Source: Melioribacteraceae bacterium
GTDB lineage: Bacteria; Bacteroidota; Ignavibacteria; Ignavibacteriales; Melioribacteraceae
Assembly: GCA_030584085.1 (NCBI GenBank)
Contig: CP129490.1
Span: 2,389,511 to 2,453,510 of the forward strand
Direction: 5' to 3'
DNA: 64,000 bases
Below are positions 1 to 15,046 of the stretch, in pieces. Positions within the stretch are counted from its first letter, which is position 1; each line of letters starts with the position of its first letter. A program made the translations under genes and the position numbers. Below the pieces are notes generated by a model, which did no database searches, was not told the DNA's origin, and saw only the letters and a list, made by a program, of their open reading frames with translations.

Positions 1-690
1 ATTAGCAAACCATTCCCAACCATTTTCTATTATTTTTGGAACGTTTGCGATTGTTTCAACATTATTAATTGTAGTTGGATTTCCCCACAAACCATTTTGT
101 GCAGGGAATGGAGGTTTAATTCTTGGATATCCTCTTTTACCTTCAATGGAATTCATCAACGAAGATTCTTCACCGCAGATATATGCACCTGCACCTTTGT
201 GAATATGAATATCACAATAAAAATCAGTTCCGAAAGTTTGTTTCATTTGTTCGCCAACGTAACCCTTAGCATAGGCGTCATCTAATGCTTTTTGCATTAA
301 CTTAATCCATTTATGGTATTCACCGCGAATATATATATAAGCTGTCTTTGCACCGATTGCATAACAAGCAATCAAAATACCTTCGATAAGCTGATGAGGA
401 TTCTTTTCGAATACTTCTCTATCTTTAAACGAACCCGGTTCTGATTCATCGCCATTAACGCAGAGATATTTAGGTTTATCTGTAGTTTTTGGCATGAAAC
501 TCCACTTGAGTCCGGTAGAAAACGCAGCACCGCCTCTGCCTCTTAATCCTGATTTCTTAACTTCGTCAATAATTTCATCCGGAGTTAAACTGAAAGCTTT
601 CTTTGCGGAATTAAATCCACCGTTAGAAAGGTAGGTATCTAACACATGTAAATTTTCTATTCCGGGGAGAACTATTTTAACTTTTTCCAT
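1..690 (-). CDS. nuoF: NADH-quinone oxidoreductase subunit F (partial, 3' end outside window)
   Basis: This is the NADH-binding, FMN-carrying subunit of respiratory complex I, which passes electrons from NADH to the iron-sulfur chain. Only the first 230 residues are visible; the C-terminal Fe-S region lies beyond base 1. The glycine-rich motif [13 protein letters not shown] and the later CGEES match the FMN/NADH-binding fold of NuoF. The start ATG shares one base with the nuoE stop (TAATG), so the two genes are translationally coupled. Gene order nuoA-B-C-D-E-F is the standard complex I order. Family assignment is secure. Confidence 0.95.
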
Positions 691-1163
691 TACTTGAGTG
701 TATCCAAAATTTCTTCAACTTTATCTTTCGTTAAATTTTCAAAATAATCTTCGTTGATTGCTATCATAGGAGCATAACCACAAGCGCCCATACATTCAAC
801 TTCCTCAATTGAAACAAGACCGTCTTCAGTAACACCAAGATTATCAATGCCGTACTTTTCTTTAATTTGCTTCCAAATTTCATAACCACCGCGCAGCATA
901 CAAGATACATTTGTACAGACTTGTATGTGATGTTTGCCCATGGGTTTTTTATGATACATTGTGTAAAATGTTGCAGCACTCAAGACCGATACATTATCTA
1001 TGCCTAGTACATTTGCAATTTCCTGCATAACTTCAGTGCTGATATAACCATTTTGTTCTTGCGCAATCCAGAGTGTATCCATTACAGCGGCTAAGGCGGT
1101 TGGATATTTCTTTCTGCTTTCTTCTATTTTCTTTAGACTTTCGTCTGTAAAATTAAATGACAT
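690..1163 (-). CDS. nuoE: NADH-quinone oxidoreductase subunit E
   Basis: The 157-residue protein is the thioredoxin-fold 2Fe-2S subunit of the complex I NADH dehydrogenase module. The four cluster ligands are visible at C83, C88, C124 and C128 (motifs CTNVSC and CMGAC). The N-terminal helical part contains the usual [10 protein letters not shown] segment. Length is normal for the family. It lies 44 bases after nuoD and shares one base with nuoF, its functional partner in the peripheral arm. Confidence 0.95.
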
Positions 1164-1207
1164 TTCAATTCTTTTTAGAATTTAGAAATTAGTGTTTAGA
1201 ATTTGTT

Positions 1208-2461
1208 TTACTTATCCGCTTCTCCCATTACAGGATCAATACTACCAATGATTGCAACAACATCGGAAATCATTTGACCTTCACACATTAATGGTAATGC
1301 TTGTATGTTACAAAAACTTGGTGATCGAATTTTTAATTTCCAAGGATGCCCGCTTCCGTTGCTAACAAAGTAGAAACCGAGCTCCCCTTTTGGATTTTCA
1401 ACCGAGAAATATGTATCGCCGACCGGAGGATTAATTCCAAAATTTACCAACATGAAATCATGAATTAGCTCTTCCATCTTTGTATAAATTTCATCTTTGT
1501 GCGGTAGAACTTTTTTAGGATCGTTTGCTAAAAATTTCCCCGGTTTAATCTTATCCAAACATTGGTAAATAATTTTTACGGATTCTTTTACTTCATCAAC
1601 ACGAACAAAATATCTAGCTAAACAATCGCCTTCATTGTAAACCGGTACTTTAAAGTCCGTCTGATCGTAGAACATATATGGTTTAGCGCGGCGGATATCA
1701 TACTCAACCCCGGAACCTCTTAAGTTCGGTCCGGTAATTCCCAAAGAGATTGCTCTGTCTTTAGGCAATAAACCTATACCGTCAAGACGTTCAACAAAAA
1801 TTCTGTTTGTATTAAGTAATCGTTCAAATTCGTCGAATGCATCTTTGAATCTATCTAGGAAATTCTTAATCATTCTTAACGCCTCATCACTTGCATCCGA
1901 AGCAACGCCTCCGAAACGTGTATAACTAGTTGTGAATCTGGCGCCAATAAGTAAGTCAAATATATTTTGTATGTATTCTCTTTCTCTGAAAGTCCACATA
2001 AATGCTGTAATTGCTCCGACATCAAGCGCGAATGTTCCAACAGCAACTAGATGTCCCATTATTCTTCCGAGCTCATTAATTATCATTCGAATATAAGTAG
2101 CTCTTTCGGGGACTTCTATTCCGGCAAGTTTTTCAACCGCAAGCACGTATGCAACGTTGTTGCAAAGATTTGCTGTGTAATCAAGTCTGTCGGTGTGAGG
2201 GATGTAGTCATAATAATTCATATTCTCGGCCATCTTTTCATATCCTCTATGAAGATAACCGAGTTCCGGCACGCATTTAACAACTGTTTCACCGTCAAGT
2301 CGAAGTAATAATCTTAAAACACCATGAGTTGCGGGATGCTGCGGACCCATGTTAATAATCATTTCGTTTTCAAGTGCATCTTCAATTGTTAAATCAGGAT
2401 CTGACTCTAAAAGTTTATTCAACAATTTCTCATCATTCGTTATATCGATTTGTTTATTCAT
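1208..2461 (-). CDS. nuoD: NADH-quinone oxidoreductase subunit D (49 kDa)
   Basis: The 417-residue subunit belongs to the hydrogenase-large-subunit-like family and forms part of the quinone-binding cavity of complex I next to NuoB. The signature GPQHPATHGVLRL appears near residues 39-51, preceded by a short acidic N-terminal extension. The C-terminus ends in a segment around DPVMGEADK, as expected. NuoC and NuoD are separate genes here, not fused as in E. coli. The ATG shares one base with the nuoC stop, which suggests coupled translation. Confidence 0.96.
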   Translation of the reverse strand: MNKQIDITNDEKLLNKLLESDPDLTIEDALENEMIINMGPQHPATHGVLRLLLRLDGETVVKCVPELGYLHRGYEKMAENMNYYDYIPHTDRLDYTANLCNNVAYVLAVEKLAGIEVPERATYIRMIINELGRIMGHLVAVGTFALDVGAITAFMWTFREREYIQNIFDLLIGARFTTSYTRFGGVASDASDEALRMIKNFLDRFKDAFDEFERLLNTNRIFVERLDGIGLLPKDRAISLGITGPNLRGSGVEYDIRRAKPYMFYDQTDFKVPVYNEGDCLARYFVRVDEVKESVKIIYQCLDKIKPGKFLANDPKKVLPHKDEIYTKMEELIHDFMLVNFGINPPVGDTYFSVENPKGELGFYFVSNGSGHPWKLKIRSPSFCNIQALPLMCEGQMISDVVAIIGSIDPVMGEADK

Positions 2462-2961
2462 TAGTCTTCGTTTTTATTTGGAAGTGGAAGTGAACCGGGT
2501 ATTCCCATAACAGGAAATTCTTTTCTTAACGGATGATATTCAAATGTTTCGGGCATGTACATTCTGCGTAAATCAGGATGATTATTAAAATGAATTCCAT
2601 ACATATCCCAGGTTTCTCTTTCATACCAATTTGCACTTTCCCAAACCGAAACTACAGAATCAATTGATGGATTTTTTGCATCTTCGATAGTTGCTTTTAA
2701 CCTTATATTAAAATTTTTACTTAGTGAATAAAGATGATAAACCGCAGTAAATCTATTTTTTCTTTTAGCCCAATCAATTGCAGTAACATCAACACACATT
2801 GCAAAATCTAATTCGGGATCATCTTTTAAGAAATTCGAAAGTTCAACAATTCTTGCGGGATGAATCTCTATACAAAGATCATTTCGGAAATCAGTTATAT
2901 CTACAATATCCGACCCAAATTTTTCTTTTACTTTGGATACGATTAATTCTTTGAATTCCAT
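2461..2961 (-). CDS. nuoC: NADH-quinone oxidoreductase subunit C (30 kDa)
   Basis: The 166-residue hydrophilic subunit sits in the connecting part of complex I and packs against NuoD. The family signature is clear: YERETWDMYGIHFNNHP followed by LRRMYMPE and HPLRKEFP. It starts 9 bases after the nuoB stop and ends by overlapping the nuoD start. It has no metal ligands, as is normal for this subunit. Confidence 0.95.
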   Translation of the reverse strand: MEFKELIVSKVKEKFGSDIVDITDFRNDLCIEIHPARIVELSNFLKDDPELDFAMCVDVTAIDWAKRKNRFTAVYHLYSLSKNFNIRLKATIEDAKNPSIDSVVSVWESANWYERETWDMYGIHFNNHPDLRRMYMPETFEYHPLRKEFPVMGIPGSLPLPNKNED

Positions 2962-2970
2962 TTTAGCCGG

Positions 2971-3489
2971 TTAGTTATTACTTATTGATAAATCAACTAA
3001 TTTCTTATCTTGAAAATCTCTTGCTCGTGTACCGTCAATTTTCTTTTGAAGCTCCATCAAAGCGTTTATTAAATTTTCGGGTCTGGGCGGACAGCCGGCA
3101 GTGTAAACATCAACAGGTAAAAACTGATCAATTCCTTGAACAACCGGGTATGATCTATACATTCCTCCGGAAGAAGTACAAGCTCCCATTGCAATTACCC
3201 ATTTTGGATCAGGCATTTGATCATAAATTCTTCTGACAACATGAGCCATTTTGTAAGTAACAGTTCCGGCTACAATTATTAGATCACATTGCCGAGGAGT
3301 AAATCTCATAACTTCAGACCCGAAACGGGACATATCATATTTAGGGTCGACTGCCGACATCATTTCAATCGCACAGCAAGAAATTCCCATCGGCATCGGC
3401 CAGAGTGAACCTTTTCTTGCCCAAGCAATTACTGCATCTAATTTCGTGGTTAAATAACCATCAGAGGTGAGCTTTGATTCTAATCCCAC
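2971..3489 (-). CDS. nuoB: NADH-quinone oxidoreductase subunit B (N2 cluster)
   Basis: The 172-residue subunit carries the terminal 4Fe-4S cluster N2 that reduces quinone. The ligands are visible: adjacent C38-C39 ([11 protein letters not shown]), C104 (GACTSSGGM) and C133 (AGCPPRPE). The start codon is GTG, inside the last 10 bases of nuoA. This overlap implies translational coupling. Length and all key residues are normal. Confidence 0.96.
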
Positions 3490-3848
3490 TTTAAAGCACC
3501 TTTCTTGTATATGTAAAGGAATCCAAGTTCAAGAACAATTAGAAAAACCATCATTGGCCAGAATGCAAAGATTCCAAACTCATTGTATAGATTACGAAAT
3601 TCAACTCCCCATGGATACAAATAGATAACTTCTATATCAAATATTATGAACATCATTGCAACGAGATAGTATTTTATCGAGACTCTCTCGTTTGTTGAAC
3701 CAATTGGATCTTTACCACTTTCATAAGGCATCATTTTAATTTTTGTTGGTCTTTGTGGCCCAAACAGCGAAGATGAAAAAATTATTGCGGCAGCAAATAC
3801 TGCGGCTACAACTAGTACTAAAATGATTGGAAGATATTGTAAAATCAT
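3480..3848 (-). CDS. nuoA: NADH-quinone oxidoreductase subunit A
   Basis: This is a 122-residue membrane subunit of complex I with three hydrophobic helices (about residues 5-27, 62-82 and 92-112). The acidic segment [13 protein letters not shown] lies after the first helix and the conserved [10 protein letters not shown] is in the second. It is the first gene of the visible nuo operon. A good promoter candidate lies just upstream at 3875-3905. No clear Shine-Dalgarno sequence precedes the ATG, unlike many other genes in this window. Confidence 0.95.
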
Positions 3849-3874
3849 AGGTTATCAATTCGTTTTGAATTCAT

Positions 3875-3905
3875 CAAAATTATTACAAAATAGGGCGAAT
3901 GTCAA
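3875..3905 (-). promoter_or_regulatory. Predicted nuo operon promoter
   Basis: On the minus strand, TTGACA (3900-3905) is followed by 17 bases and TAATTTTG (3875-3882). This gives TTG-N20-TA and fits the Bacteroidota -7 consensus TAnnTTTG exactly. It would give a leader of about 20 bases before nuoA. The lysJ stop is at 3967 and I see no terminator hairpin between it and this site, so some read-through from the lys operon is possible. Confidence 0.6.
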
Positions 3906-3966
3906 TTTGATGATTATTCACGGAAATTGATGATGATGTGCGTAAAATTGAAAAATAATTCGAAAG

Positions 3967-5121
3967 TTAAGCTAAAATTTCGTTCAAATTTTCGGCTACT
4001 TTGTCCAATTGCTCCTTTGTAATAACTAAAGGAGGAAGCATTCGAATTACGGTTGTACCAGCAGGTAAAGCAAGTATTCCCCTTTTCATAAGTTCTTCTA
4101 AATATGGTTTTGATTTTTCTTTTAGTTCAATTCCAATCATCAATCCCATATGTCTTACTTCTCGAATTTTGGAAAGATTATTGATATCAAGTTTTGAAAT
4201 AAAGTACTCTCCAAGCTCGGCTGCTCTTTCGTCCAATTTATTATCTAGCATAAAATTAATAGACGCTAATCCGGCTGCGCAAGCTAATGGATTTCCGCCG
4301 TAAGTTGTTCCGTGTTTGCCCGCGGGAACTTCTAATAAATCATTGCATAATACAGCACCGACCGGAAAACCACCGGCGATTGCTTTTGCAAGACAAACCA
4401 TGTCAGGCTGAATATCAAAATGTTCATGAGCAAACATCTTCCCGGTTCTGCAGAAACCTGTTTGGATTTCATCAATTATTAGTTTGATTCCCTTTTCGTT
4501 ACAAAGTTTTTGTGTCGATTGAAGAAAATTTTTATCAGCAATATTTATTCCGCCTTCACCTTGAATAACTTCAATTATTACTCCTGCCGTCTTCTCTGTA
4601 ACTGCTTCGGCTAATTTTTCAAAATTATTAAAAGGTACGAAAGAAAATCCCGGAACTAACGGTTCGAAATCTTCCCGATATTCTTTTTTAAAAGTAGCAC
4701 TTAATGCACCGAGAGTTCTTCCGTGGAAACCTTTCATTGTGGCAATGAAATCGGTTTTTTTAGTTGAATATCTTGTAAACTTAATTGCAGATTCCATTGC
4801 TTCAGCACCCGAGTTGCACAAATATGCTTTTGTAAAATTCTTTGGCGCAATTGAAATTAGTTTTTCTAAAAATTTTGCTTTAGTATCGTTATAAAATGTG
4901 CCAGGACAAGTGACCAAAGTAGATGCTTGTTCAGTCAGTGCTTTGACAAGATACGGATTTGCATGTCCGATGCTGGCAACTCCAATACCGGCAGCACAAT
5001 CGATGTATTCGTTTCCTTTGTCGTCCCATAATGTTGCTTCTTTTCCCTTTACTAAAACTACATCGCGTTTTGGGAAGACATCAAATTCATATTTACTTTG
5101 TAATTCTTTGTAGTCAATCAT
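3967..5121 (-). CDS. lysJ: LysW-type/acetylornithine-like aminotransferase (LysJ)
   Basis: The 384-residue class III PLP aminotransferase would convert LysW-bound aminoadipate semialdehyde to LysW-bound lysine, using glutamate as amino donor. The PLP-phosphate motif NSGAEAMESAIK is at 103-114, GFHGRT at 131-136, the Asp of DEIQTGFCRTG near 218, and the Schiff-base lysine K246 in LAKAIAGG. By sequence alone it could be ArgD (acetylornithine aminotransferase). The assignment to LysJ rests on its place as last gene of the lysW operon. Its ATG overlaps the lysZ stop by 4 bases (ATGA). Confidence 0.85.
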   Translation of the reverse strand: MIDYKELQSKYEFDVFPKRDVVLVKGKEATLWDDKGNEYIDCAAGIGVASIGHANPYLVKALTEQASTLVTCPGTFYNDTKAKFLEKLISIAPKNFTKAYLCNSGAEAMESAIKFTRYSTKKTDFIATMKGFHGRTLGALSATFKKEYREDFEPLVPGFSFVPFNNFEKLAEAVTEKTAGVIIEVIQGEGGINIADKNFLQSTQKLCNEKGIKLIIDEIQTGFCRTGKMFAHEHFDIQPDMVCLAKAIAGGFPVGAVLCNDLLEVPAGKHGTTYGGNPLACAAGLASINFMLDNKLDERAAELGEYFISKLDINNLSKIREVRHMGLMIGIELKEKSKPYLEELMKRGILALPAGTTVIRMLPPLVITKEQLDKVAENLNEILA

Positions 5122-5912
5122 TTTATTACTGTCCCTTTATTTTCAATTGCATCTTTTAACGGATGCTCGGTTCTTCCATCAGCAATTATAACAGTTGCAT
5201 CGGAAGTTTCGAATAATTTATTTAATGCGTGCAACTTTCGTTTAATTCTGCCATCAACTTGTTCTTCTTTTTGACGAAGTTCTTCTTTCGTCATATTCAA
5301 AATTAATGAACTTTCATCATTTACATCCTCTAAGAATCCCGGAGCTTCAATAAATTGGATTATTCTTTCCGCTTTTAGTGTCGATTGAAATACTGCCAAA
5401 ATATCATCGTTTTCCGAATTGATAGCTTTGCCTTCTTCATCAGCAATCGGCACAGTAACAACTGGGAGATACTTATTTTGTAAAAGTAAATTAATAAAAT
5501 CACTATTAATTGCTTGAGGCTTGCCTGAATTATCACGAATGACTTTGAGTTTATTATTTTCTCTTACTCTTATTCCGGTGTTTCTTTTACCTTGCACCAA
5601 TCTGCCATCCAAGCCTGTTAACCCAACAGCATTTATTCCGGCTTGTTGAGCTAATTCAACAATTCTTTTGTTCATAACCCCGGCATAAGCCATTAGTTGA
5701 ATATCAATTGCATCATCATCACTAAAAACACTTGCATAACCCGAAACTGAAGTAATTATTTTTTTTTCATAATTTAATTTTGCTGCAAGTTGATCTCTAT
5801 AAGCATTCGCTCCATGGATAATTATAAACTGCTCATCTTTCATTGTTGAGATATCATCAATAATACCCTTAACATTAATAGACTGTCCGCCACCGATTTT
5901 AATAAGTATCAT
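5118..5912 (-). CDS. lysZ: LysW-aminoadipate kinase (LysZ, NAG kinase family)
   Basis: The 264-residue amino acid kinase phosphorylates the side-chain carboxyl of the substrate held on LysW. It starts MILIKIGGGQSIN, the phosphate-binding glycine loop of the N-acetylglutamate kinase family. It contains GVMNKRIVELAQQAGINAVG and LTGLDGRL, blocks characteristic of LysZ compared with ordinary ArgB. It overlaps the upstream amidotransferase-like gene and the downstream lysJ by 4 bases each, so translation is probably coupled across three genes. Glutamate-pathway kinase (ArgB) is the alternative, but the operon favours LysZ. Confidence 0.87.
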   Translation of the reverse strand: MILIKIGGGQSINVKGIIDDISTMKDEQFIIIHGANAYRDQLAAKLNYEKKIITSVSGYASVFSDDDAIDIQLMAYAGVMNKRIVELAQQAGINAVGLTGLDGRLVQGKRNTGIRVRENNKLKVIRDNSGKPQAINSDFINLLLQNKYLPVVTVPIADEEGKAINSENDDILAVFQSTLKAERIIQFIEAPGFLEDVNDESSLILNMTKEELRQKEEQVDGRIKRKLHALNKLFETSDATVIIADGRTEHPLKDAIENKGTVIK

Positions 5913-6547
5913 TCATTAAACTCCATAATTGTATTATTCGGAATTGTTAACCACTCATGATCATCTAAAGGATCTGAACAAATAATAAGTTCACTTTTAT
6001 TTTGCTTATAACTCATTGTAAAGTATTCTTCATCCTCATTGAATTGCGATGAAACAACAACGCTATTTTTATCAGTAAAGATAATATTCATTGCGCGAAT
6101 GTAACTTGTTCTTTGCTTTATAATTGTTGTACCCTTTTGAAGAGCTTCAAGTTTATTTCCTCGATCAAAGCGATTAATAAAATTAAATATTTTCTCAGCA
6201 CCAATTCTTCCTTCGACTTTTAACTTTACACCATTAAGTTCACCGTTAAAAATGAAGATTGTATCATTATTGTAAAACGGCATATTGTTTTCTATGGTTA
6301 TATCTTGATCACGGAAAGCACTTCTTGCATGTACTACTAGTCTATTTGTGATATTAAATTTTGAAAAATCATTCTCCCAAATTGGATTTATATTTTTGTA
6401 ATGATTCCATTCATTATTTTTTAAATATGCTAATCCCCAACCATGTCCTTGAAATTCTTTGCTGTTTTTGCAAATCACAGCAAATTTATCAAGGTATTCG
6501 GGGATTGAAAACTGATCTTTAGATTTTATAAATAATAATCTACACAT
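5909..6547 (-). CDS. Class II glutamine amidotransferase-like Ntn hydrolase in the lysW operon
   Basis: The 212-residue protein has the class II glutamine amidotransferase fold of the YafJ/EgtC type. Visible are the N-terminal nucleophile C2 (MCRLLF), GHGWGLAY at 34-41, the substrate-binding HARSAF at 73-78, NNMPF at 87-91, the oxyanion-hole FNGELNG near 100-106, and a C-terminal SDPLDDHEW block. I use the ATG at 6547 because the enzyme needs Met-Cys at its start. An upstream in-frame ATG at 6595 would add 16 residues encoded by a repeat. There is no synthetase domain, so it may hydrolyse a gamma-glutamyl bond itself. It sits between lysY and lysZ and overlaps lysZ by 4 bases. Its substrate is unknown; a role in releasing product from LysW is my hypothesis. 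Confidence 0.75.
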   Translation of the reverse strand: MCRLLFIKSKDQFSIPEYLDKFAVICKNSKEFQGHGWGLAYLKNNEWNHYKNINPIWENDFSKFNITNRLVVHARSAFRDQDITIENNMPFYNNDTIFIFNGELNGVKLKVEGRIGAEKIFNFINRFDRGNKLEALQKGTTIIKQRTSYIRAMNIIFTDKNSVVVSSQFNEDEEYFTMSYKQNKSELIICSDPLDDHEWLTIPNNTIMEFNE

Positions 6548-6550
6548 ATT

Positions 6551-6617
6551 CTTCTCTGTGTTTCTTTGTGACCTTTGTGGTGAATCTTTCACCACAGAGA
6601 ACGCAAAGGTCCACTGA
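6551..6617. repeat. CACAGAG-type 9-base-period inverted repeat element
   Basis: The plus strand reads three near-copies of a 9-base unit (CTCTGTGTT, TCTTTGTGA, CCTTTGTGG), then TGAATCTTTCA, then degenerate copies in the opposite orientation (CCACAGAGA, ACGCAAAGG, TCCACTGAG). GTGGTGAA and TTCACCAC can pair as a hairpin around a short loop. It fills almost all of the 73 bases between lysY and the amidotransferase-like gene. From memory, similar CACAGAG repeats occur between genes in many unrelated bacteria; their function is unknown. Confidence 0.6.
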
Positions 6618-6620
6618 GTA

Positions 6621-7670
6621 TTAAATTGGATGAAGACCCGGAAATTCTAGTCCCGTTGTTTCATCAAAACCGTTCATTAAATTGAAAGCTTGTAAAGCTT
6701 GTCCAGCCGCACCTTTCATCAAATTATCAATTGCACTGATAACCACAACACGATTGGAGTTTTCATCTTTCTTAAAGCCGATATCACAATAATTTGTTCC
6801 GATCAATAGTTTTGGTTCCGGGTATCTATAGTTACCTTCATTCTCTTTAACAATTCTTATGAAAGGTTCGTTACTATAAAACTCACGGTATAATTTCCAG
6901 ATATCTTTTTCTTCTAGATTTTCTTTCAGAAATAGATGAGATGTTGCTAGAACACCGCGCACCATATCAATCGAAGTAGCAGAAAAGTGAACACTAATTT
7001 TCTTTCCGCTAAAACTCAATTCTTGTATAATTTCCGCACTGTGTCTATGTCCTGTTGGTTGGTATGATCTAACAGCTCCTGCTCTTTCCGGATGATGTGA
7101 AGCATCGGATGATTTGTTACCTCCTTCACTTGATCCAACTTTTACTTCGATAACTGTTCGATCTAAATCAACTAAATCTTTTTTAAAGAAAGGATATAAT
7201 GGTAAAATAGTTGTAGTTGCATTGCAACCGGCAGAGGAAATATATTTAGCGGATTTCATTTCTTCACGATGAAGTTCAGGAATTCCATAAACAAAATCCT
7301 TTAATAGTTCCGGTCGAGCATGTTTATGATGATACCATTTCTCATATTCATTTTTGTCATTTAATCTAAAGTCAGCACTAAGATCAATAATGCGATCGGC
7401 AATCTTTAAAAAATTATCAATATTTTTTTGCGCACTTCCGTGAGGAAGACAGAGAAAAAGTAAATCGCATTTTTCCAGTTCATTCATACTGCTGAATTTT
7501 AAGTCAGTTACTTTTCTAAGATTCGGATGAGCTTTGTAAATGAACTTACCTAGATAACTTTCGGAAGTTACCTGTTTGATTTCAACTTTCGGATGAAAAA
7601 GAAGTAACCTTATTAAATCGCCACCGGCATAACCGGAACCTCCAACAACCGATACACTTAGTTTCTGCAT
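6621..7670 (-). CDS. lysY: LysW-aminoadipyl phosphate reductase (LysY, ArgC family)
   Basis: The 349-residue NADPH-dependent reductase turns the acyl phosphate made by LysZ into a semialdehyde. The Rossmann motif VVGGSGYAGGDLIRLL is at the N-terminus. The catalytic cysteine is in SSAGCNATTT (about C149), and the family motif HHPERAGAVRSYQPTGHRH follows. I chose the ATG at 7670, one base after the lysX stop, with GGAG upstream; a TTG 15 bases further upstream overlaps lysX. ArgC of the arginine pathway is the close alternative. The repeat element lies directly after its stop. Confidence 0.88.
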   Translation of the reverse strand: MQKLSVSVVGGSGYAGGDLIRLLLFHPKVEIKQVTSESYLGKFIYKAHPNLRKVTDLKFSSMNELEKCDLLFLCLPHGSAQKNIDNFLKIADRIIDLSADFRLNDKNEYEKWYHHKHARPELLKDFVYGIPELHREEMKSAKYISSAGCNATTTILPLYPFFKKDLVDLDRTVIEVKVGSSEGGNKSSDASHHPERAGAVRSYQPTGHRHSAEIIQELSFSGKKISVHFSATSIDMVRGVLATSHLFLKENLEEKDIWKLYREFYSNEPFIRIVKENEGNYRYPEPKLLIGTNYCDIGFKKDENSNRVVVISAIDNLMKGAAGQALQAFNLMNGFDETTGLEFPGLHPI

Positions 7671-7671
7671 T

Positions 7672-8514
7672 TTAATTTGCTCCAACTTTTAAGACATAGT
7701 CAACTATCTTTGCGGGAATATTTACCCCGGTAGTTGTTATGCTATTTTTGAATTCCATTGTATAGTTAACTTCGTTTACCATTAATCCATCTTTTGATTC
7801 AAAAAGATCAATAGCAACAACACCACCGCCAACTGCATGCGCTGCTTTAACCGATATTTCCGCAATGTCATTTGTAACCGGACAATTAGTTGCAACAGCA
7901 CCTCTTGCTGTGTTTGTAATCCAATGTGGTGATGTTCTATAGATTGATCCGATGCATTCATCACCAACAACAAAACTTCTAATATCACGTCCGGATTTCT
8001 CAACATACTTTTGAATATAAAAAATTGAATGATGGTATGTTCCCAAAACTGTTTTATGTTCAAGTATTGATTCTGCTGCGTCTCTATCATTTACTTTTGA
8101 AAGTAACCTCCCCCAAGAACCAACAGCCGGTTTTAGAACAACCGGATAGCCCATTTCTTCAATTGTTTCCAAAGCAGATTCTTCTGTAAAAGCAACACGA
8201 ACTTCTGGTTGAGGAATTTTTTGTTTTCCCAACTCAACGGAAGTTAAAAGTTTATCACCGCATATAGTTGCAACATGCGAATTGTTAACACATTTAACTC
8301 CGGCACTTTCGTAAAGTACGATTGAGTGCAGTGCGCGAGAGTGATTAATACTTCGTTCAATCACCACATCCAAATCAAACTGGTCAACACCAATATTAAA
8401 CGACAATTGTCGATCATCTATCATTACCAGCTCAACATTTTTTCTTTTATTGAATTCTTCAATCAAAAACTTTTCATCTTTACGAATTAACGAATGTAAA
8501 AAACCTACTTTCAT
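7672..8514 (-). CDS. lysX: LysW-aminoadipate ligase (LysX, ATP-grasp/RimK family)
   Basis: The 280-residue ATP-grasp enzyme would join the amino group of alpha-aminoadipate to the C-terminal glutamate of LysW. Seen are [17 protein letters not shown] (125-141), the nucleotide and metal-binding [17 protein letters not shown] (236-252), and [11 protein letters not shown] (254-264), which resembles the substrate end of Thermus LysX as I recall it. Length is typical. RimK and ArgX are related, but the LysW gene in the same operon makes LysX/ArgX the only sensible group. Whether it prefers aminoadipate or glutamate cannot be settled by reading. Confidence 0.88.
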
Positions 8515-8558
8515 TGTTTTCTCTCTTTTGCTGTAATTAATTTATGGATTAAACAGCA

Positions 8559-9716
8559 TCAAGAAGCGAATTGCTTATGATGCTTACAAACTTCTACTAT
8601 ATGAGGTAATTCGGAAAGTTCGACCATTCTTCCCTTTTGGCCGATTGTCTTTATTTCTTTTAGTACTTCTTTTTTCAATTCATCTTCAATGTTATCATAA
8701 TTAATAACTTGTAGAGCATAATTTAGAGAAGCCATTCCCGACATGTGATCTAATGCGAACTTCCGTTCTCTTCCAACTAATTCTGGATTTAGACTTTCAT
8801 AGTGCATTGGATTGATAGCGGCAGCATGTGTATGAACTCCGGCACAATGTGTGAACGCATTCTGACCAATTACGGGGAAGTTTAAAGGTATTGGTAGATT
8901 GGCGTGCTTGCTAACTAAGTCATACAGTTCGGGTAATAATTTCAGATTCCATTTGTCAATTTTAAAATCTGCTGCAAGTAAAGTTAATAACTGCGCGAGA
9001 TCAACAATACCGGCTCTTTCTCCAAGACCCAATACCGAAGCATCAACTATATTTGCACCGCCGCGAATACCGTCCATCGCGTTTGCTAATGCCAAACCTC
9101 TATCATTGTGGCAATGCACAGCTATCATCGGGTCAAGATTTTCATTTGTTAAACCATTCTTCAACTTTCTTACATAATCGTACATGTTGTGATCGGAACC
9201 GGGAATCATATAACCGGTTGTATCGGCAATACTAATAATATCTGCACCTGCTTTAACCGCTGCAACAGCAACCTTAATAACGTTTTCAAATTGAGAACGA
9301 ACTGTATCTTCCGGAGTATATCTTATTAATAAATCCGGTTTAACACTTTTGGCATATTTAATCACATCGGTGATTTGTTGGATCGCCGCATCCAAATCTT
9401 TTTTGAATACTGTCGATAATCTTTCATCACTAACACAATAAAAAATTCCAATAAAACTCACTCCACAATCAAGAGCTTGATCTATATCTGATTTAACTGA
9501 TCTTGAGTGTGCAGCAACTATGGCATTCAATTTCGAATGGGCAATGTTGTGAACTGCTGAGCGGATATCTTCGGTTACTGTCGGATGACCGGTTTCAATA
9601 ATGTCTATACCGATTTCATCCAATAGACGAGCAATTGCAAGTTTGATGTGACGATCAAAATAAACACCGGGCGTTTGTTCACCCTCTCGTAATGTTGAAT
9701 CCAATACCTTAATCAA
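8559..9716 (-). CDS. hcs: Homocitrate synthase-like acyltransferase
   Basis: The 385-residue DRE-TIM metallolyase would condense acetyl-CoA with 2-oxoglutarate to homocitrate, the first step of the aminoadipate route to lysine. The DSTLREGEQTPG motif is at 6-17, metal ligands H201 and H203 in VHCHNDRG, VLGLGERAG at 228-236, and HCAGVHTHA at 290-298. The start is TTG directly after the lysW stop (TAA then TTG). The related isopropylmalate and citramalate synthases share these motifs. Its length without the long LeuA regulatory domain and its place behind lysW favour homocitrate synthase. Confidence 0.8.
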   Translation of the reverse strand: MIKVLDSTLREGEQTPGVYFDRHIKLAIARLLDEIGIDIIETGHPTVTEDIRSAVHNIAHSKLNAIVAAHSRSVKSDIDQALDCGVSFIGIFYCVSDERLSTVFKKDLDAAIQQITDVIKYAKSVKPDLLIRYTPEDTVRSQFENVIKVAVAAVKAGADIISIADTTGYMIPGSDHNMYDYVRKLKNGLTNENLDPMIAVHCHNDRGLALANAMDGIRGGANIVDASVLGLGERAGIVDLAQLLTLLAADFKIDKWNLKLLPELYDLVSKHANLPIPLNFPVIGQNAFTHCAGVHTHAAAINPMHYESLNPELVGRERKFALDHMSGMASLNYALQVINYDNIEDELKKEVLKEIKTIGQKGRMVELSELPHIVEVCKHHKQFAS

Positions 9717-9881
9717 TTACTCGCCCCAATCTTCTTCTTCACTTGGAGCTTCGGCAAGTGTGAATGGATTAACACTTGTTACTTCTAATTCAGTTCCACA
9801 GTCAGGACACTCAATCAATTCACCTTTAACTGTATCTTCAGGCAGTTGAATATCCGCTGCACATACAGGGCACTCAGCCAT
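9717..9881 (-). CDS. lysW: Amino-group carrier protein LysW
   Basis: This 54-residue gene is short and easily missed. The protein has two CxxC pairs (CPVC at 4-7 and CPDC at 25-28) that should bind zinc, an acidic body, and the C-terminal signature EDWGE. The last glutamate is the residue to which LysX attaches the substrate, which then stays on LysW through phosphorylation, reduction and transamination. AAGGA lies 6-8 bases before the ATG. It is the first gene of the operon. The terminal EDWGE plus the neighbouring lysX, lysY, lysZ and lysJ make this identification very firm. Confidence 0.96.
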   Translation of the reverse strand: MAECPVCAADIQLPEDTVKGELIECPDCGTELEVTSVNPFTLAEAPSEEEDWGE

Positions 9882-9918
9882 TTTATATCCTTCATTTTTT
9901 TGAGATTAATAATTGGTG

Positions 9919-9949
9919 CGAAAGTACAGATAAATATTTTCTTTTACAA
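9919..9949 (-). promoter_or_regulatory. Predicted lysW operon promoter
   Basis: On the minus strand TTG (9947-9949) is followed by exactly 20 bases and TACTTTCG (9919-9926), one mismatch from TAnnTTTG. Spacing equals that of the nuo promoter. It would start a transcript about 30 bases before lysW. The rest of the 162-base gap after the alcohol dehydrogenase gene shows no hairpin that I would call a terminator. Confidence 0.5.
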
Positions 9950-10043
9950 CGAATTTTTATGAAATCAAAATACATTTTGTAAAACTTTTAATGAACTCAA
10001 AAAGAAAAACAGATCAATAACTACATCTCACAGAATTGACAAA

Positions 10044-11210
10044 CTAAATCAAAGCGAGTTCATATATTCTCTTAATATCATCTCTGTACAACTTCACAAG
10101 ATTTCCTATTGGTGCACGCAGTGATGCATTATCGGTAAGTTTGTCCAAATCTTTTTCAGTAACATTAATTTGTTTTAATGATGTTGGTGTACCAATTTCA
10201 TCAAAGAACTCTTTTACTTTATCTATTGTTCGCAATGCGACATTCGCCTCATCCCCGTCAAGATCAAAAACATTTCTTCCTAGTTTAGCAAATTTTAGAA
10301 TATCATTTTTATATACATATTTCATCCAAGCAGGAAACATTATCGACAGCCCAGCTCCGTGTGCTATATCATAAAACGCACTTAAAGAATGTTCAAGGGT
10401 ATGCGTTGACCAATCACCCCAACTTCTTCCTGCACCATTAATTCCATTTAATGCAAGAGTTGCAGACCATGCAAGATTTGCACGTGATTCATAATTATCA
10501 GGATTAGCCAAAAGTATTCTAACATGTTTCATGGTAGTCCGTAGTATTCCTTCAGCAATTTCATCTTGTATGTCTGTGTTTTTTGTTCCGTCAAAATAAA
10601 GTTCAAACACATGCGACATTGTATCGACTGCACCGTTAATTGTTTGTTCAACCGGCAAAGTCATTTGTACTGTTGGATCAATTACGGTTACTCTTGGGAA
10701 GGAATCGTACCCTGCAGAGAAAGCCCATTTCTTTTTTTCATCTTCTTTGGTAATTACTGCGAATGCATTCATTTCTGAGGCAGTCGCTGAAAGAGTTAAA
10801 ACGGTAAAAATCGGAATCCCTCTTGTAGCTTTCTTTTTTCCTTCAAATGCATCCCAAATATTGCCATCAAAAAGAACTCCGGCAGCAATTGCTTTAGCAC
10901 TGTCAATAACACTTCCACCTCCTACTGCTAAAACAGCTTCAAGTTTTTCATTCTTACAAAGATCAATTCCTTTTTGCACTTTTGTTAGTACAGGATTTGG
11001 TTTAACTCCCCCGAGTTCAATCCATTCAATCCCATTTTTGTTTAATGAATCAGTGACTTGTTGATAAACTCCATTCTTGAAAATAGATGATTTGCCATAG
11101 TGTAATAAAACTTTCTTAATATTATTGGATGCTATTTCGCTTCCGATTTTTTCAATCATTCCCTTCCCAAACAAAATCTTTGTTGGATTTACAAACTCAA
11201 AATTTTTCAT
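10044..11210 (-). CDS. Iron-containing alcohol dehydrogenase (YqhD/butanol dehydrogenase type)
   Basis: The 388-residue enzyme reduces aldehydes or oxidises alcohols, probably with NADPH. The nucleotide loop AVGGGSVIDSAKAIA is near 95-109. Metal ligands D196, H200, H270 and H284 fit the spacing of E. coli YqhD. The start at 11210 gives MKNFEFVNPTKILFGKG, the usual beginning of the family, with AAGG upstream. A longer reading from 11303 adds 31 residues without family similarity. It stands alone, divergent from the 2-oxoglutarate dehydrogenase gene; the 206 bases between them hold a small palindrome (AAGATA-aaa-TATCTT). Physiological substrate unknown. Confidence 0.85.
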   Translation of the reverse strand: MKNFEFVNPTKILFGKGMIEKIGSEIASNNIKKVLLHYGKSSIFKNGVYQQVTDSLNKNGIEWIELGGVKPNPVLTKVQKGIDLCKNEKLEAVLAVGGGSVIDSAKAIAAGVLFDGNIWDAFEGKKKATRGIPIFTVLTLSATASEMNAFAVITKEDEKKKWAFSAGYDSFPRVTVIDPTVQMTLPVEQTINGAVDTMSHVFELYFDGTKNTDIQDEIAEGILRTTMKHVRILLANPDNYESRANLAWSATLALNGINGAGRSWGDWSTHTLEHSLSAFYDIAHGAGLSIMFPAWMKYVYKNDILKFAKLGRNVFDLDGDEANVALRTIDKVKEFFDEIGTPTSLKQINVTEKDLDKLTDNASLRAPIGNLVKLYRDDIKRIYELALI

Positions 11211-11416
11211 ATTTTTACGCCTTTTTAAAATAAGATATTTTATCTTGTTTGCTGTTTTGTATTCTTGAGTTAAAACAGCCATTAATTTGCCATGAATATT
11301 CAATAATTTTCGATTTTTCTTTAATTTGAACTAAAGTGTGTCTAATTTTGTATAGAACATTATATCCTTTTTTAATTGTTGAAAAAAACTATAAACAATC
11401 GAGATAATATAAGAAA

Positions 11417-14400
11417 ATGGGCGAAAAAGAAGTTAGTAAGTATCATCAAGAATTATTTAATCATTTCGGATACAATTACGGTTTTGTTGCCGACCTACTT
11501 GAAAAGTATTTTGAAAATTCAAATTCGGTTTCTGAATATTGGCAAAACTATTTTGACGATTTGACAAGTGGTTCGCAAAGTAAAAACGAACAAACAAAAA
11601 CCGAATCAAAAGGGAGCAAAAACAAATCTGCTTCACTTCAACTTTCCCCTTCTTTTGAAATATCCGAGGAAGACGAACCTCAAAGTATAACGGGTGTCGG
11701 TGCGAAAATTATTGAGAACATGAATAATAGTTTAACAATCCCGACTGCAACATCATTGCGAACAATTTCGGTTAAACTATTGGAAGAGAATAGAAGAATA
11801 ATTAACCAGCACTTAAAAAGATTACATGGTAGAAAATTATCCTTTACTCATATAGTTGCTTATGCACTTGTTCAAGCTGTTAAGAAAATGCCGAACATGA
11901 ACAATTCTTTTGCGGTACTCGATAACCAGCCACATCTCGTCAAAAAACCATATATCAATTTAGGATTGGCGGTTGATATAGAACGAAAAGACGGAACTCG
12001 TTCACTTATTGTCCCGAATATTAAAAAAGCCGGTAGAATGAATTTTAAACAATTTTGTGATGCATATGATGACTTAATCGGCAAAGCAAAATCCGGCAAA
12101 ATTGAGCCCAAGGATTTTCAAAATTCTACTATTACTTTAACAAACCCAGGTGGAATAGGAACAGTTTCCTCCACACCAAGGTTAATGACGGGACAAGGTT
12201 GTATACTTGCGGTCGGCGCAATTGATTATCCTTCCGAATTCAAAGCGATGCATCAAACAGCCTTGGCAAGTTTGGGAATCGGCAAAGTAATGAATGTAAC
12301 AAGCACTTATGATCATAGAGTAATTCAAGGAGCTGAATCGGGTGAATTCTTAAAATATTTTGATGAGCTTTTACTTGGGCAGAATAATTTTTACGAGAGT
12401 CTTTTTGAAGATTTGGAAATACCTCAGCGTCCTGTAAACTGGAGAACCGATACAACTTCAACTCAAATCGGTGTGGTTTCCGGCAATGAAGAAATTGAAA
12501 AACAAGCGATTATTCTTCAGTTAATAAATATGTATCGTGTACGTGGACATCTAATTGCAAATCTGAATCCGCTATCTAAAACTGCTGCATACCATGAGGA
12601 GTTAGACCCCTCAACTTATGGATTTACAATTTGGGATTATGATAGAAAGTTTATCACCGGGAATCTTGCCGGTATGGCAACCGGTACACTTCGCGAAATA
12701 TTGGAAGCACTTCATCAAACATATTGTGAGATGATTGGTATTGAGTACATGCATATTCAAAATCCAAGTGAAAAAGCTTGGCTGCAAAGTAAAATGGAAC
12801 CGGTAAGAAATCTTCCACATTACGAAACCGATATTAAAAAACGTATTATGGATAAATTAATTATTGCCGAGGGTTTTGAACATTTTCTGCATACTCGTTT
12901 TGTGGGTCACAAAAGATTTTCGCTTGAAGGCTCGGAAACTCTAATTCCCGTTATGGATAGATTATTAGGTGTTGCGGCAGATAATGGAGTAGAAGAAGTA
13001 TTTCTTGGTATGGCCCATAGAGGTAGATTAAATGTTCTATCTAATGTTTTAGGTAAAGATTATAGCAAAATATTTTCTGAATTTGAAGAAGATTTAAATC
13101 CCGATGTACCACAAGGAACCGGTGATGTCAAATATCACTTGGGAGCAAACGGAGAATACGAAACTTATAACGGTAAAAAAATAAATGTTTCGATTGCATC
13201 AAATCCAAGTCATCTTGAATGGGTAAATCCGGTTGTAGAGGGTGTTGTTAGAGCAAAACAACAAAGATCTGAAGATACCTCACGCGATAAAATTATTCCG
13301 GTTTTGATTCATGGTGATGCGGCATTTGCCGGGCAAGGAGTAGTTGCCGAAACATTAAATTTATCTCAACTAAAAGGTTATAGGACCGGCGGTACAATTC
13401 ATATAATAATTAATAACCAAATTGGATTTACAACCTCTCCCGAAGATGCTCGTTCTTCACCTTATGCAACCGACGTTGCCAAAATGGTACAAGCTCCAAT
13501 CTTCCATGTCAACGGTGATGATCCCGAAGCTTCTGTTTGGGTAACTGAATTAGCATTCCAATATCGCCAAAAATTTAATAAAGATGTTGTGATTGATTTA
13601 TTCGGCTATAGAAGACATGGACATAACGAAGGTGATGATCCGGTCTATACTCAACCACTCATGTACAAGAAAATAAAAAGTCATCCTTCCGTTAAGCAGA
13701 TCTATGCTAATAAATTAATTAGTGAGAAAATTTATACTCAAAAAGAAATAGACAAGTTTGATTCTGAAATTTTTGATAAACTTGATAAATCACTTAAAGA
13801 ATCGAAGAAAACAAAAATTTCATTTAGACCTGATAGACCTTGGGCGATTTCAAAAGAAGAGTATGAAAAAAAGCATGAATCCCAAACTTCAAAGGTTAGT
13901 ATTGATAAACTAAATGAAGTAGTAAAAGGACTTACAAAATTTTCCGATAATTTTACGCTGAATCCAAAGTTGAAAAAACAAATTGAGAAGCGAAAAGAAT
14001 TTTTTACTGGAAGTACAAGAATTGACTGGGCATTTGCCGAAGCATTGGCGTTTGGTTCTTTATTAATTGAAGGAATTCCGGTTAGGTTAAGCGGTCAAGA
14101 CAGTGCCCGCGGAACCTTTAGCCAACGGCATTTAATTCTAACTGATATGAATGACGGAAGTGAAATTATTCCTCACAATTCAATTAGAGCAGAACAAGCA
14201 TTTCTTGAACCGTTAGATAGCTTCCTTTCCGAAGCAGCCGTATTAGGTTTTGAGTTCGGTTATAGTGCAGCCGATCCTAAAACTTTAGTATTATGGGAAG
14301 CACAGTTTGGAGATTTTGCAAACGGCGCTCAAGTGATAATTGATAATTTTATTTGCTGTTCTTATACAAAATGGAATCTGCCAAATAATTTAGTTTTATT

Positions 14401-15046
14401 ATTACCGCATGGACAAGAAGGTCAAGGTCCCGAACATTCAAGCGCAAGGTTGGAACGGTTTCTGATTCTTTGTGCTGAAAACAATATGTATGTTGCTAAT
14501 CCAACAACTCCGGCACAGTATTTTCATTTGTTGAGAAGACAGATGACCGACGGACAGGAGAAACCATTGATTGTAATGACTCCGAAGAGCTTACTGCGTT
14601 TACCTGCCGCCCGTTCCGAGGTTAAAGAATTTACCGATGGCGAATTCAAAACAATTATTGATGATGATCGTGTTTCGGATAAATCCTCAATTACAAATTT
14701 AATTTTTACCAGCGGCAAAATTTATTACGATCTTGTTAAATATCAGGAAGCCGAACAAAAAATGAACTCCGCAATTGTAAGGATTGAACAATACTATCCT
14801 CTCGATCTTGATCAGATTAAATCCATAATAAAATCTTATCAAAAAGTTAAAAAGATAAAGTGGGTTCAAGAAGAACCGCGCAATATGGGCGCTTGGAATT
14901 TCTTATTTCCGAAGTTCTTGGATATTATGGGATCGAAAAATAAGATTGAATACGTGGGTAAACCGGAAAGTCCTAGTCCTGCTCCCGGTTCATTAAAAAT
15001 GCATACAAAGTCACAAGAGGAAGTTTTGAAGAAAGCTTTTAAATAG
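11417..15046 (+). CDS. kgd: Fused 2-oxoglutarate dehydrogenase E1 / lipoyl-less E2 (Kgd type)
   Basis: The 1209-residue protein joins a short N-terminal segment, a Ser/Lys/Glu-rich linker (about 45-85), an acyltransferase (E2) catalytic domain (about 90-335) and a full thiamine-dependent E1o domain (about 360-1209). The E2 part ends in TYDHRVIQGAESGEF, the variant seen in mycobacterial Kgd, and carries no lipoyl domain. The E1 part has MAHRGRLNVL and the thiamine-binding IHGDAAFAGQG. It should act in the TCA cycle with a separate lipoyl-bearing E2 and E3 that are not in this window. It is one of only two plus-strand genes. The reading frame is intact. Confidence 0.93.
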   Translation: MGEKEVSKYHQELFNHFGYNYGFVADLLEKYFENSNSVSEYWQNYFDDLTSGSQSKNEQTKTESKGSKNKSASLQLSPSFEISEEDEPQSITGVGAKIIENMNNSLTIPTATSLRTISVKLLEENRRIINQHLKRLHGRKLSFTHIVAYALVQAVKKMPNMNNSFAVLDNQPHLVKKPYINLGLAVDIERKDGTRSLIVPNIKKAGRMNFKQFCDAYDDLIGKAKSGKIEPKDFQNSTITLTNPGGIGTVSSTPRLMTGQGCILAVGAIDYPSEFKAMHQTALASLGIGKVMNVTSTYDHRVIQGAESGEFLKYFDELLLGQNNFYESLFEDLEIPQRPVNWRTDTTSTQIGVVSGNEEIEKQAIILQLINMYRVRGHLIANLNPLSKTAAYHEELDPSTYGFTIWDYDRKFITGNLAGMATGTLREILEALHQTYCEMIGIEYMHIQNPSEKAWLQSKMEPVRNLPHYETDIKKRIMDKLIIAEGFEHFLHTRFVGHKRFSLEGSETLIPVMDRLLGVAADNGVEEVFLGMAHRGRLNVLSNVLGKDYSKIFSEFEEDLNPDVPQGTGDVKYHLGANGEYETYNGKKINVSIASNPSHLEWVNPVVEGVVRAKQQRSEDTSRDKIIPVLIHGDAAFAGQGVVAETLNLSQLKGYRTGGTIHIIINNQIGFTTSPEDARSSPYATDVAKMVQAPIFHVNGDDPEASVWVTELAFQYRQKFNKDVVIDLFGYRRHGHNEGDDPVYTQPLMYKKIKSHPSVKQIYANKLISEKIYTQKEIDKFDSEIFDKLDKSLKESKKTKISFRPDRPWAISKEEYEKKHESQTSKVSIDKLNEVVKGLTKFSDNFTLNPKLKKQIEKRKEFFTGSTRIDWAFAEALAFGSLLIEGIPVRLSGQDSARGTFSQRHLILTDMNDGSEIIPHNSIRAEQAFLEPLDSFLSEAAVLGFEFGYSAADPKTLVLWEAQFGDFANGAQVIIDNFICCSYTKWNLPNNLVLLLPHGQEGQGPEHSSARLERFLILCAENNMYVANPTTPAQYFHLLRRQMTDGQEKPLIVMTPKSLLRLPAARSEVKEFTDGEFKTIIDDDRVSDKSSITNLIFTSGKIYYDLVKYQEAEQKMNSAIVRIEQYYPLDLDQIKSIIKSYQKVKKIKWVQEEPRNMGAWNFLFPKFLDIMGSKNKIEYVGKPESPSPAPGSLKMHTKSQEEVLKKAFK

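Follow-up and report, generated by a model that had tools for sequence, protein, structure and literature searches.

The lysine operon and its amidotransferase-like gene

The window, a 64,000-nucleotide stretch from the genome of a Melioribacteraceae bacterium (contig CP129490.1), carries a row of genes for LysW-dependent lysine biosynthesis on its minus strand. Read from position 9881 to position 3967, these genes encode LysW, a homocitrate synthase-like protein, LysX, LysY, a stand-alone protein with a predicted class II amidotransferase fold that we refer to as GAT, LysZ, and LysJ; all coordinates given for this operon are on the minus strand. The amino-group carrier protein LysW (9717..9881) possesses the tail EEDWGE and exceeds the cut-offs of PF21344 (73.7 vs. 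27 bits) and TIGR01206 (66.9 vs. 53.2 bits); its C-terminal residue, the substrate-carrying Glu54, is specified by a GAG codon (9720..9722). The homocitrate synthase-like gene adjoins that of LysW (8559..9716) and best matches the LysS model TIGR02146 with 356.9 bits, below the cut-off of 413.55. Assignments over the respective cut-offs were obtained for the LysX ligase with its GSWGR motif (7672..8514; TIGR02144, 358.7 vs. 275.6 bits), the LysY/ArgC-type reductase (6621..7685; TIGR01850, 412.4 vs. 233.6 bits), the [LysW]-aminoadipate kinase LysZ (5118..5912; NF010659, 238.7 vs. 223 bits), and the LysJ/ArgD-type aminotransferase (3967..5121; TIGR00707, 440.1 vs. 410.05 bits). The last of these proteins scored 456.5 bits with the LysJ_Th_th model, below its cut-off of 700.

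GAT (5909..6547) is a 212-residue protein that we propose as a putative LysW gamma-amide hydrolase and substitute for LysK. Its reading frame is already open from a GTG at 6595; the ATG at 6547 was chosen as the start since homologs begin at M1-C2. An earlier note on this DNA had described the motifs C2, HARSAF, FNGELNG, and SDPLDDHEW, a position between lysY and lysZ with a 4-base overlap, and the lack of a fused synthetase domain. All of this held up: the translation, which begins with MCR, contains the four motifs, positions 5909-5912 are common to GAT and lysZ, and profile searches (Pfam, NCBIfam) of the 212 residues revealed no synthetase domain. GAT reached 19.9 bits with Pfam GATase_4, below the gathering score of 23, and 53.2 bits with the EgtC model TIGR03442, far under the cut-off of 218.65; M20 models gave no match at E 0.001.

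The gap between lysY and GAT holds a 31-base inverted repeat (6554-6618; 74% complementary, 3-base loop), the core of which occurs in a single copy in the window and was absent from the other loci examined, apart from copies of the same place. An Rfam search of positions 3000-11500 yielded no family over its gathering score. Judged from the list of open reading frames, a row of genes downstream of the operon (690-3848) reads as NADH dehydrogenase subunits, and a 1209-residue frame (11417-15046) reads as a fused 2-oxoglutarate dehydrogenase enzyme.

Predicted fold and active site

A predicted model of GAT (mean pLDDT 93.3, pTM 0.91) has EgtC as its nearest solved structure (Foldseek E 2.9e-13), which upholds the likeness in fold drawn in the earlier note. 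Alignment with EgtC structure 4zfl gave a Z of 25.8 and an rmsd of 1.7 over 199 residues at 17% identity, and GlmS, PurF, and others followed as the next nearest structures. EgtC, the ergothioneine Ntn hydrolase (TIGR03442; PDB 4zfj, 4zfk, and 4zfl), cuts a gamma-glutamyl amide bond, that of gamma-glutamyl-hercynylcysteine sulfoxide, and resembles GAT in fold, N-terminal Cys, and stand-alone nature. Unlike EgtC, GAT falls below the TIGR03442 cut-off, possesses a Gly in place of the Asp of TDSE, and is sited in LysW clusters; its expected substrate would be the C-terminus of a protein.

The hallmarks of class II amidotransferases, an N-terminal Cys, HxR, and Asn-Gly, are present as C2, R75, and N101-G102 in 33/33 loci from 26 genomes. 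Cys2 (codon 6542..6544), the presumed N-terminal nucleophile by analogy with the fold family, is invariant in the 82 rows of our alignment, as are Arg75 of HARSAF (6323..6325) and Asn101-Gly102 (6242..6247). In GlmS and PurF, the corresponding Arg holds the alpha-carboxylate of the substrate, and the Asp of a TDTE or TDSE motif holds its free alpha-amino group. We assume that Arg75 has the same role in GAT, and take Asn101-Gly102 to be the oxyanion hole. The Asp of these relatives is replaced in GAT by Gly116 (6200..6202). Gly116 is present (IGAE, with TGAE in L156) in all 33 loci recovered by whole-protein or profile searches, seven of which come from a genome already represented, so that 26 genomes are covered; for the best 80 loci analyzed below, it is partly built in, since these were drawn with patterns including GRIGAEKI. 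The Asp is retained in GlmS, in two amidotransferases of the same Melioribacteraceae genome, and in 15/15 EgtC-like proteins, which score just below the EgtC cut-off and are compared here through a distant cross-family alignment. In LysW, the alpha-carboxylate of the terminal Glu is free, whereas its alpha-nitrogen is engaged in a peptide bond, so loss of the Asp would be expected if LysW were the substrate. Judged from the sequences, a Gly in place of the Asp suits the C-terminus of LysW better than it suits free glutamine or the substrate of EgtC.

Distribution of GAT, LysW, and LysK

GAT was found in 19 of 58 related genomes and was sited between LysY and LysZ in each of the 19, which argues that its placement in the operon is not due to chance. 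In a class sample of 255 genomes, LysW over the cut-off and GAT were each present in 24, and these were the identical genomes. The earlier note had named a lysK elsewhere in the genome, combined with the absence of GAT from the operons of relatives, as the finding that would speak against its proposal; we observed the opposite, as no protein of this genome passes the LysK cut-off (see below) and all 24 genomes with a LysW over the cut-off carry GAT. At a threshold of E 1e-6, LysW was detected in 26 of the 255 genomes, including two with weaker LysWs and no GAT (G020 and G224). Neither of these weak LysWs has LysX, LysY, or LysZ within the surrounding stretches of 17 and 16 kb, and they are possibly relics. 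Their tails read WDE (L154 in G020) and WDD (L155 in G224); one adjoins a LysJ-like gene, and the other stands alone. Kinship among the genomes makes all these co-occurrence counts less independent than they appear.

A scan of genome contigs recovered 241 relatives of GAT, of which the best 80 were analyzed. LysZ adjoins GAT in 77 of these 80 loci; the contigs end at this place in L043 and L098, and L108 carries GAT without recognized lys genes. By their record titles, the best 80 stem from Ignavibacteria, Calditrichota, KSB1, Deltaproteobacteria, SAR324, Gammaproteobacteria, Binatia, and Woesearchaeota, with the proviso that most records are metagenome bins and that some taxon names are possibly wrong. 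For 24 genomes whose GAT locus lacked a LysW, a search with TIGR01206 found one in nine and none in 15, and in 12 of these 15 the locus is cut by a contig end upstream of GAT. The remaining three loci (L090, L107, and L108) are uncut upstream and have none of LysW, LysX, and LysY close by. As TIGR01206 is unmatched throughout these three genomes, they count against a strict rule that ties GAT to LysW; in L090 and L107, GAT is accompanied by LysZ and LysJ. Across 52 loci, GAT distances correlated with those of LysZ, LysY, LysX, and LysJ (r of 0.84, 0.81, 0.75, and 0.82; 0/500 permutations each), and the four Lys enzymes mostly track each other more closely (r of 0.77-0.91). Such values would be expected of a constant component of the pathway, though common descent by itself also produces them.

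Several proteobacterial GAT clusters have no homocitrate synthase alongside, so their product may be ornithine; for 15 loci, the flanking regions were inspected at the level of raw open reading frames only. The GAT cluster of L096 contains a tandem pair of LysX-like genes (7260-8926), of which one may serve aminoadipate and the other glutamate. One genome titled Deltaproteobacteria (G289) has two LysWs over the cut-off (L190 and L192), each adjoining a LysX.

The earlier note had seen no gene for LysK in the window, and we extended the search to the entire genome of this bacterium, a single contig of 3,742,376 bases that is 99.35% complete. No protein passed the cut-off of the LysK model TIGR01902; the best match (81 vs. 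163.1 bits) is a protein that passes the cut-offs of the YgeY models. The five best-scoring M20 proteins, to which this identity scan was confined (nine further PF01546 matches lie outside it), proved to be a PRK08201-type dipeptidase, a TIGR01891 amidohydrolase, YgeY, a beta-Ala-His dipeptidase, and PepT, and among the best 25 models for each, none of the LysK, ArgE, or DapE models scored over its cut-off. We also considered a missing LysA as an indicator that the LysW pathway is the sole route to lysine; this proved a weak test and is not relied on. TIGR01048 (lysA) was unmatched at 1e-6 in 7/24 GAT genomes and in 22/231 others; the genome under study has two matches (best 4.4e-63), and G010 possesses LysW and GAT with no TIGR01048 match.

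TIGR01902 was not matched over its cut-off in any of 33 genomes (31 with GAT, the other two being G020 and G224), nor in any of 50 GAT genomes across phyla; the latter are 50 of 66 chosen and share at least four genomes, by identical coordinates, with the set of 33. The same search passed in 4/14 control genomes. TIGR01902 is a single model that a diverged LysK could escape, and matches below the cut-off were present in 28/33 and 41/50 genomes; since such M20 proteins are common, a divergent hydrolase could perform the release in those genomes. At E 0.001, the M20 model PF01546 matched in 10 of 14 GAT genomes searched, including one archaeal genome (L108), and gave no match in four other archaeal GAT genomes (L078, L075, L064, and L079), whose completeness is not stated. 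L078 belongs to archaeon GW2011_AR15, which is present as one chromosome record, and its biosynthetic row could be assigned with NCBIfam models: a homocitrate/isopropylmalate synthase, large and small subunits of homoaconitase type, and an enzyme of homoisocitrate dehydrogenase type, then LysX, LysY, GAT, LysZ, and LysJ. Its LysW gave no hit at 1e-20 and was detected by similarity. Read from raw open reading frames, L064 has the same layout.

Clusters with the opposite composition were found on plasmids. LysW matched 9 of 72,556 plasmid records (E 0.1), and an M20 hydrolase related to the LysK of Deinococcus was present in all nine LysW clusters; eight of these hydrolases were annotated, that of L176 was found via tblastn, and all nine align. 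GAT had no match in the plasmid records at E 1e-3; its absence alongside LysK is accordingly read from plasmid records, not host chromosomes, and from a weak control. For that control, we considered letting TIGR03442 stand in for GAT in the control genomes and rejected this, as the model gave matches in 10/14 controls at 1e-3, a threshold at which GlmS-type proteins are picked up as well. At 1e-9, it detected only Synechococcus among the controls but misses the true GATs of G032, G003, G118, and G069, so that the lack of a match in Thermus, Deinobacterium, Haloferax, and Sulfolobus is to be taken only as a hint. Conversely, relatives of the plasmid M20 proteins occur in 2/99 GAT loci (L013-L111, with stretches of varying length), namely L082 and L090, at least 5 kb away from GAT and with 27-35% identity. 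Two further plasmids were noted. On that of Thermomicrobium roseum, LysX stands by itself, the annotation of the surrounding 12.8 kb listing neither LysW nor LysK nor GAT. A Staphylococcus epidermidis plasmid (NZ_CP043848.1; L178) carries a cluster of LysW, a RimK-like ligase, an ArgC-like protein, and an M20 protein, possibly an amino-group-carrier pathway that does not serve lysine synthesis.

LysK, the [LysW]-lysine hydrolase (M20; TIGR01902, NF003367), performs the same step that we propose for GAT, and the two belong to unrelated families, LysK using a metal and GAT a presumed Cys nucleophile. The operon of Deinococcus starts with homocitrate synthase, two homoaconitase-type subunits, LysW, and LysX, and ends with an ArgC-type reductase, a kinase, an aminotransferase, and, as its last gene, the [LysW]-lysine hydrolase, whereas GAT lies between LysY and LysZ. 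As in the LysW pathway of Thermus and Deinococcus, LysW, LysX, LysY, LysZ, LysJ, and a homocitrate synthase-like gene are gathered here in one operon; the differences are the presence of GAT, the missing LysK, and, in some relatives, a Gln-ended LysW. In the open-licence literature searched, we found no report of a GAT-type gene in the LysW pathway. A passage on the lysine genes of Caldithrix abyssi places LysWXZYJ and Hcs in one locus, with other pathway homologs scattered over the genome, and LysK is unnamed in that passage (PMC5317091). The "LysW" in the pertinent text of another paper is a different protein, a predicted transporter (PMC545781), and was set aside.

LysW tails and the proposed role of GAT

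The C-termini of LysW proteins from GAT genomes brought out a feature that is absent from the earlier note. Among 69 such proteins (56 from the best-80 loci, 10 from nine further genomes, those of G069 and G195, and that of the window), the last residue is Glu in 53 and Gln in 16, with no third variant. In the 56, the terminal codons, GAA/GAG and CAG/CAA, differ by a single base, and on a quick tree of 47 loci (Gln in 14) the terminal residue changed at least eight times. All 12 LysWs taken from elsewhere (nine from plasmids, two of them with one and the same protein, and three from the PDB; 11 distinct) end in Glu. The search for GAT covered only the plasmid records among them, and so small a set does not prove that only GAT genomes have Gln tails. 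As described in a passage of PMC10433800, LysW is loaded via the gamma-carboxyl group of its last Glu, and LysX recognizes the EDWGE tail through its GSWGR motif. A LysW ending in Gln should not be loadable unless it is deamidated. Since deamidation of Gln is the same gamma-amide cleavage that we propose for GAT, the Gln-ended LysWs suggest a possible second, priming role of this enzyme. No LysW paper on deamidation or a C-terminal Gln was among the matches listed in the open-licence literature. To the best of our knowledge, a carrier-priming step has not been described for LysW.

The Gln tails could also be read to mean that GAT only deamidates or repairs LysW from Gln to Glu, and that an unrecognized hydrolase, e.g., a diverged M20 protein, releases lysine; the 16/69 Gln-ended LysWs and the frequent M20 proteins below the cut-off are compatible with this. 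We consider it improbable, since GAT would have no work to do on the 53/69 LysWs, including that of the window, that already end in Glu, yet the gene is kept, and since the four archaeal GAT genomes L078, L075, L064, and L079 have no PF01546 match. Somewhat less probable still is that GAT acts as an editing hydrolase, stripping misloaded LysW (LysW-Glu or stalled intermediates), with the role of LysK filled otherwise. The chemistry would be the same, and LysX relatives can load either Glu or aminoadipate according to the part of PMC10433800 that treats them. An editing function would leave unexplained why LysK over the cut-off is absent from the GAT genomes tested and why clusters carry either an M20 protein, as in the nine plasmid clusters, or GAT. 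The class II amidotransferase fold and N-terminal Cys would suit a glutaminase subunit that feeds ammonia to an operon partner, a reading that we regard as the least probable since we know of no step in the LysW lysine pathway that takes up ammonia, no ammonia-using synthetase is fused to GAT or present among the scanned neighbors, and the Asp that would hold the amino group of free glutamine is Gly in GAT.

The comparative evidence, namely the place of GAT in the operon, its co-occurrence with LysW, the absence of a LysK over the cut-off, and the predicted fold, supports the suggestion of the earlier note that GAT could replace LysK as the last enzyme of the LysW-carried lysine pathway, to which we assign a probability of roughly 80%. 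GAT would then probably cut the finished lysine off the carrier by a chemistry other than that of LysK. We infer its reaction, substrate, and second role from fold, conservation, neighborhood, co-occurrence, and the Gln tails. In the proposed sequence of events, LysX would load aminoadipate onto LysW, and LysZ, LysY, and LysJ would convert LysW-aminoadipate to LysW-lysine. Cys2 of GAT would attack the gamma-amide through which lysine is attached, by its alpha-amino group, to the last Glu of LysW; lysine would leave while the LysW gamma-glutamyl group is held on Cys2 as a thioester, and water would then free LysW-Glu for the next round. As suggested by fold and conservation, Arg75 may grip the free C-terminal carboxylate of LysW, Asn101-Gly102 may serve as the oxyanion hole, and Gly116 may leave room for the LysW chain. 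In lineages with a Gln-ended LysW, GAT would first convert the Gln to Glu by deamidation and thereby make the carrier fit for loading by LysX.

The pupylation system offers a parallel for such a dual function. In some actinobacteria, Pup is encoded with a Gln, and Dop both deamidates Pup and cuts the Pup-lysine bond, as laid out in a passage of PMC8599861. Should both roles of GAT hold, the two enzymes would have in common that they deamidate a terminal Gln and cut a gamma-Glu isopeptide bond on a small carrier. According to the same source (PMC8599861), the fold of Dop is glutamine synthetase-like, and the enzyme requires ATP to form its active-site phosphate. GAT, by contrast, has a predicted amidotransferase fold; the GAT model lacks the glutamine synthetase-like fold of the Dop/PafA family. 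We see about an even chance that a logic of this type operates across bacteria and archaea, with LysW made in many lineages as an inactive precursor ending in Gln and with one Ntn hydrolase that primes this precursor, later discharges lysine, and replaces LysK.

If the proposed role is true, the missing last step of LysW-dependent lysine biosynthesis would be filled in Ignavibacteria, Calditrichota, some proteobacteria, and Woesearchaeota. It would also mean that one essential step has passed between two enzyme types, a metallopeptidase and a cysteine Ntn hydrolase. With the Gln-ended carriers, the pathway would gain a step that primes its carrier, a parallel to pupylation in an unrelated fold. 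For genome annotation, this would mean that organisms scored as lacking LysK may nevertheless make lysine.
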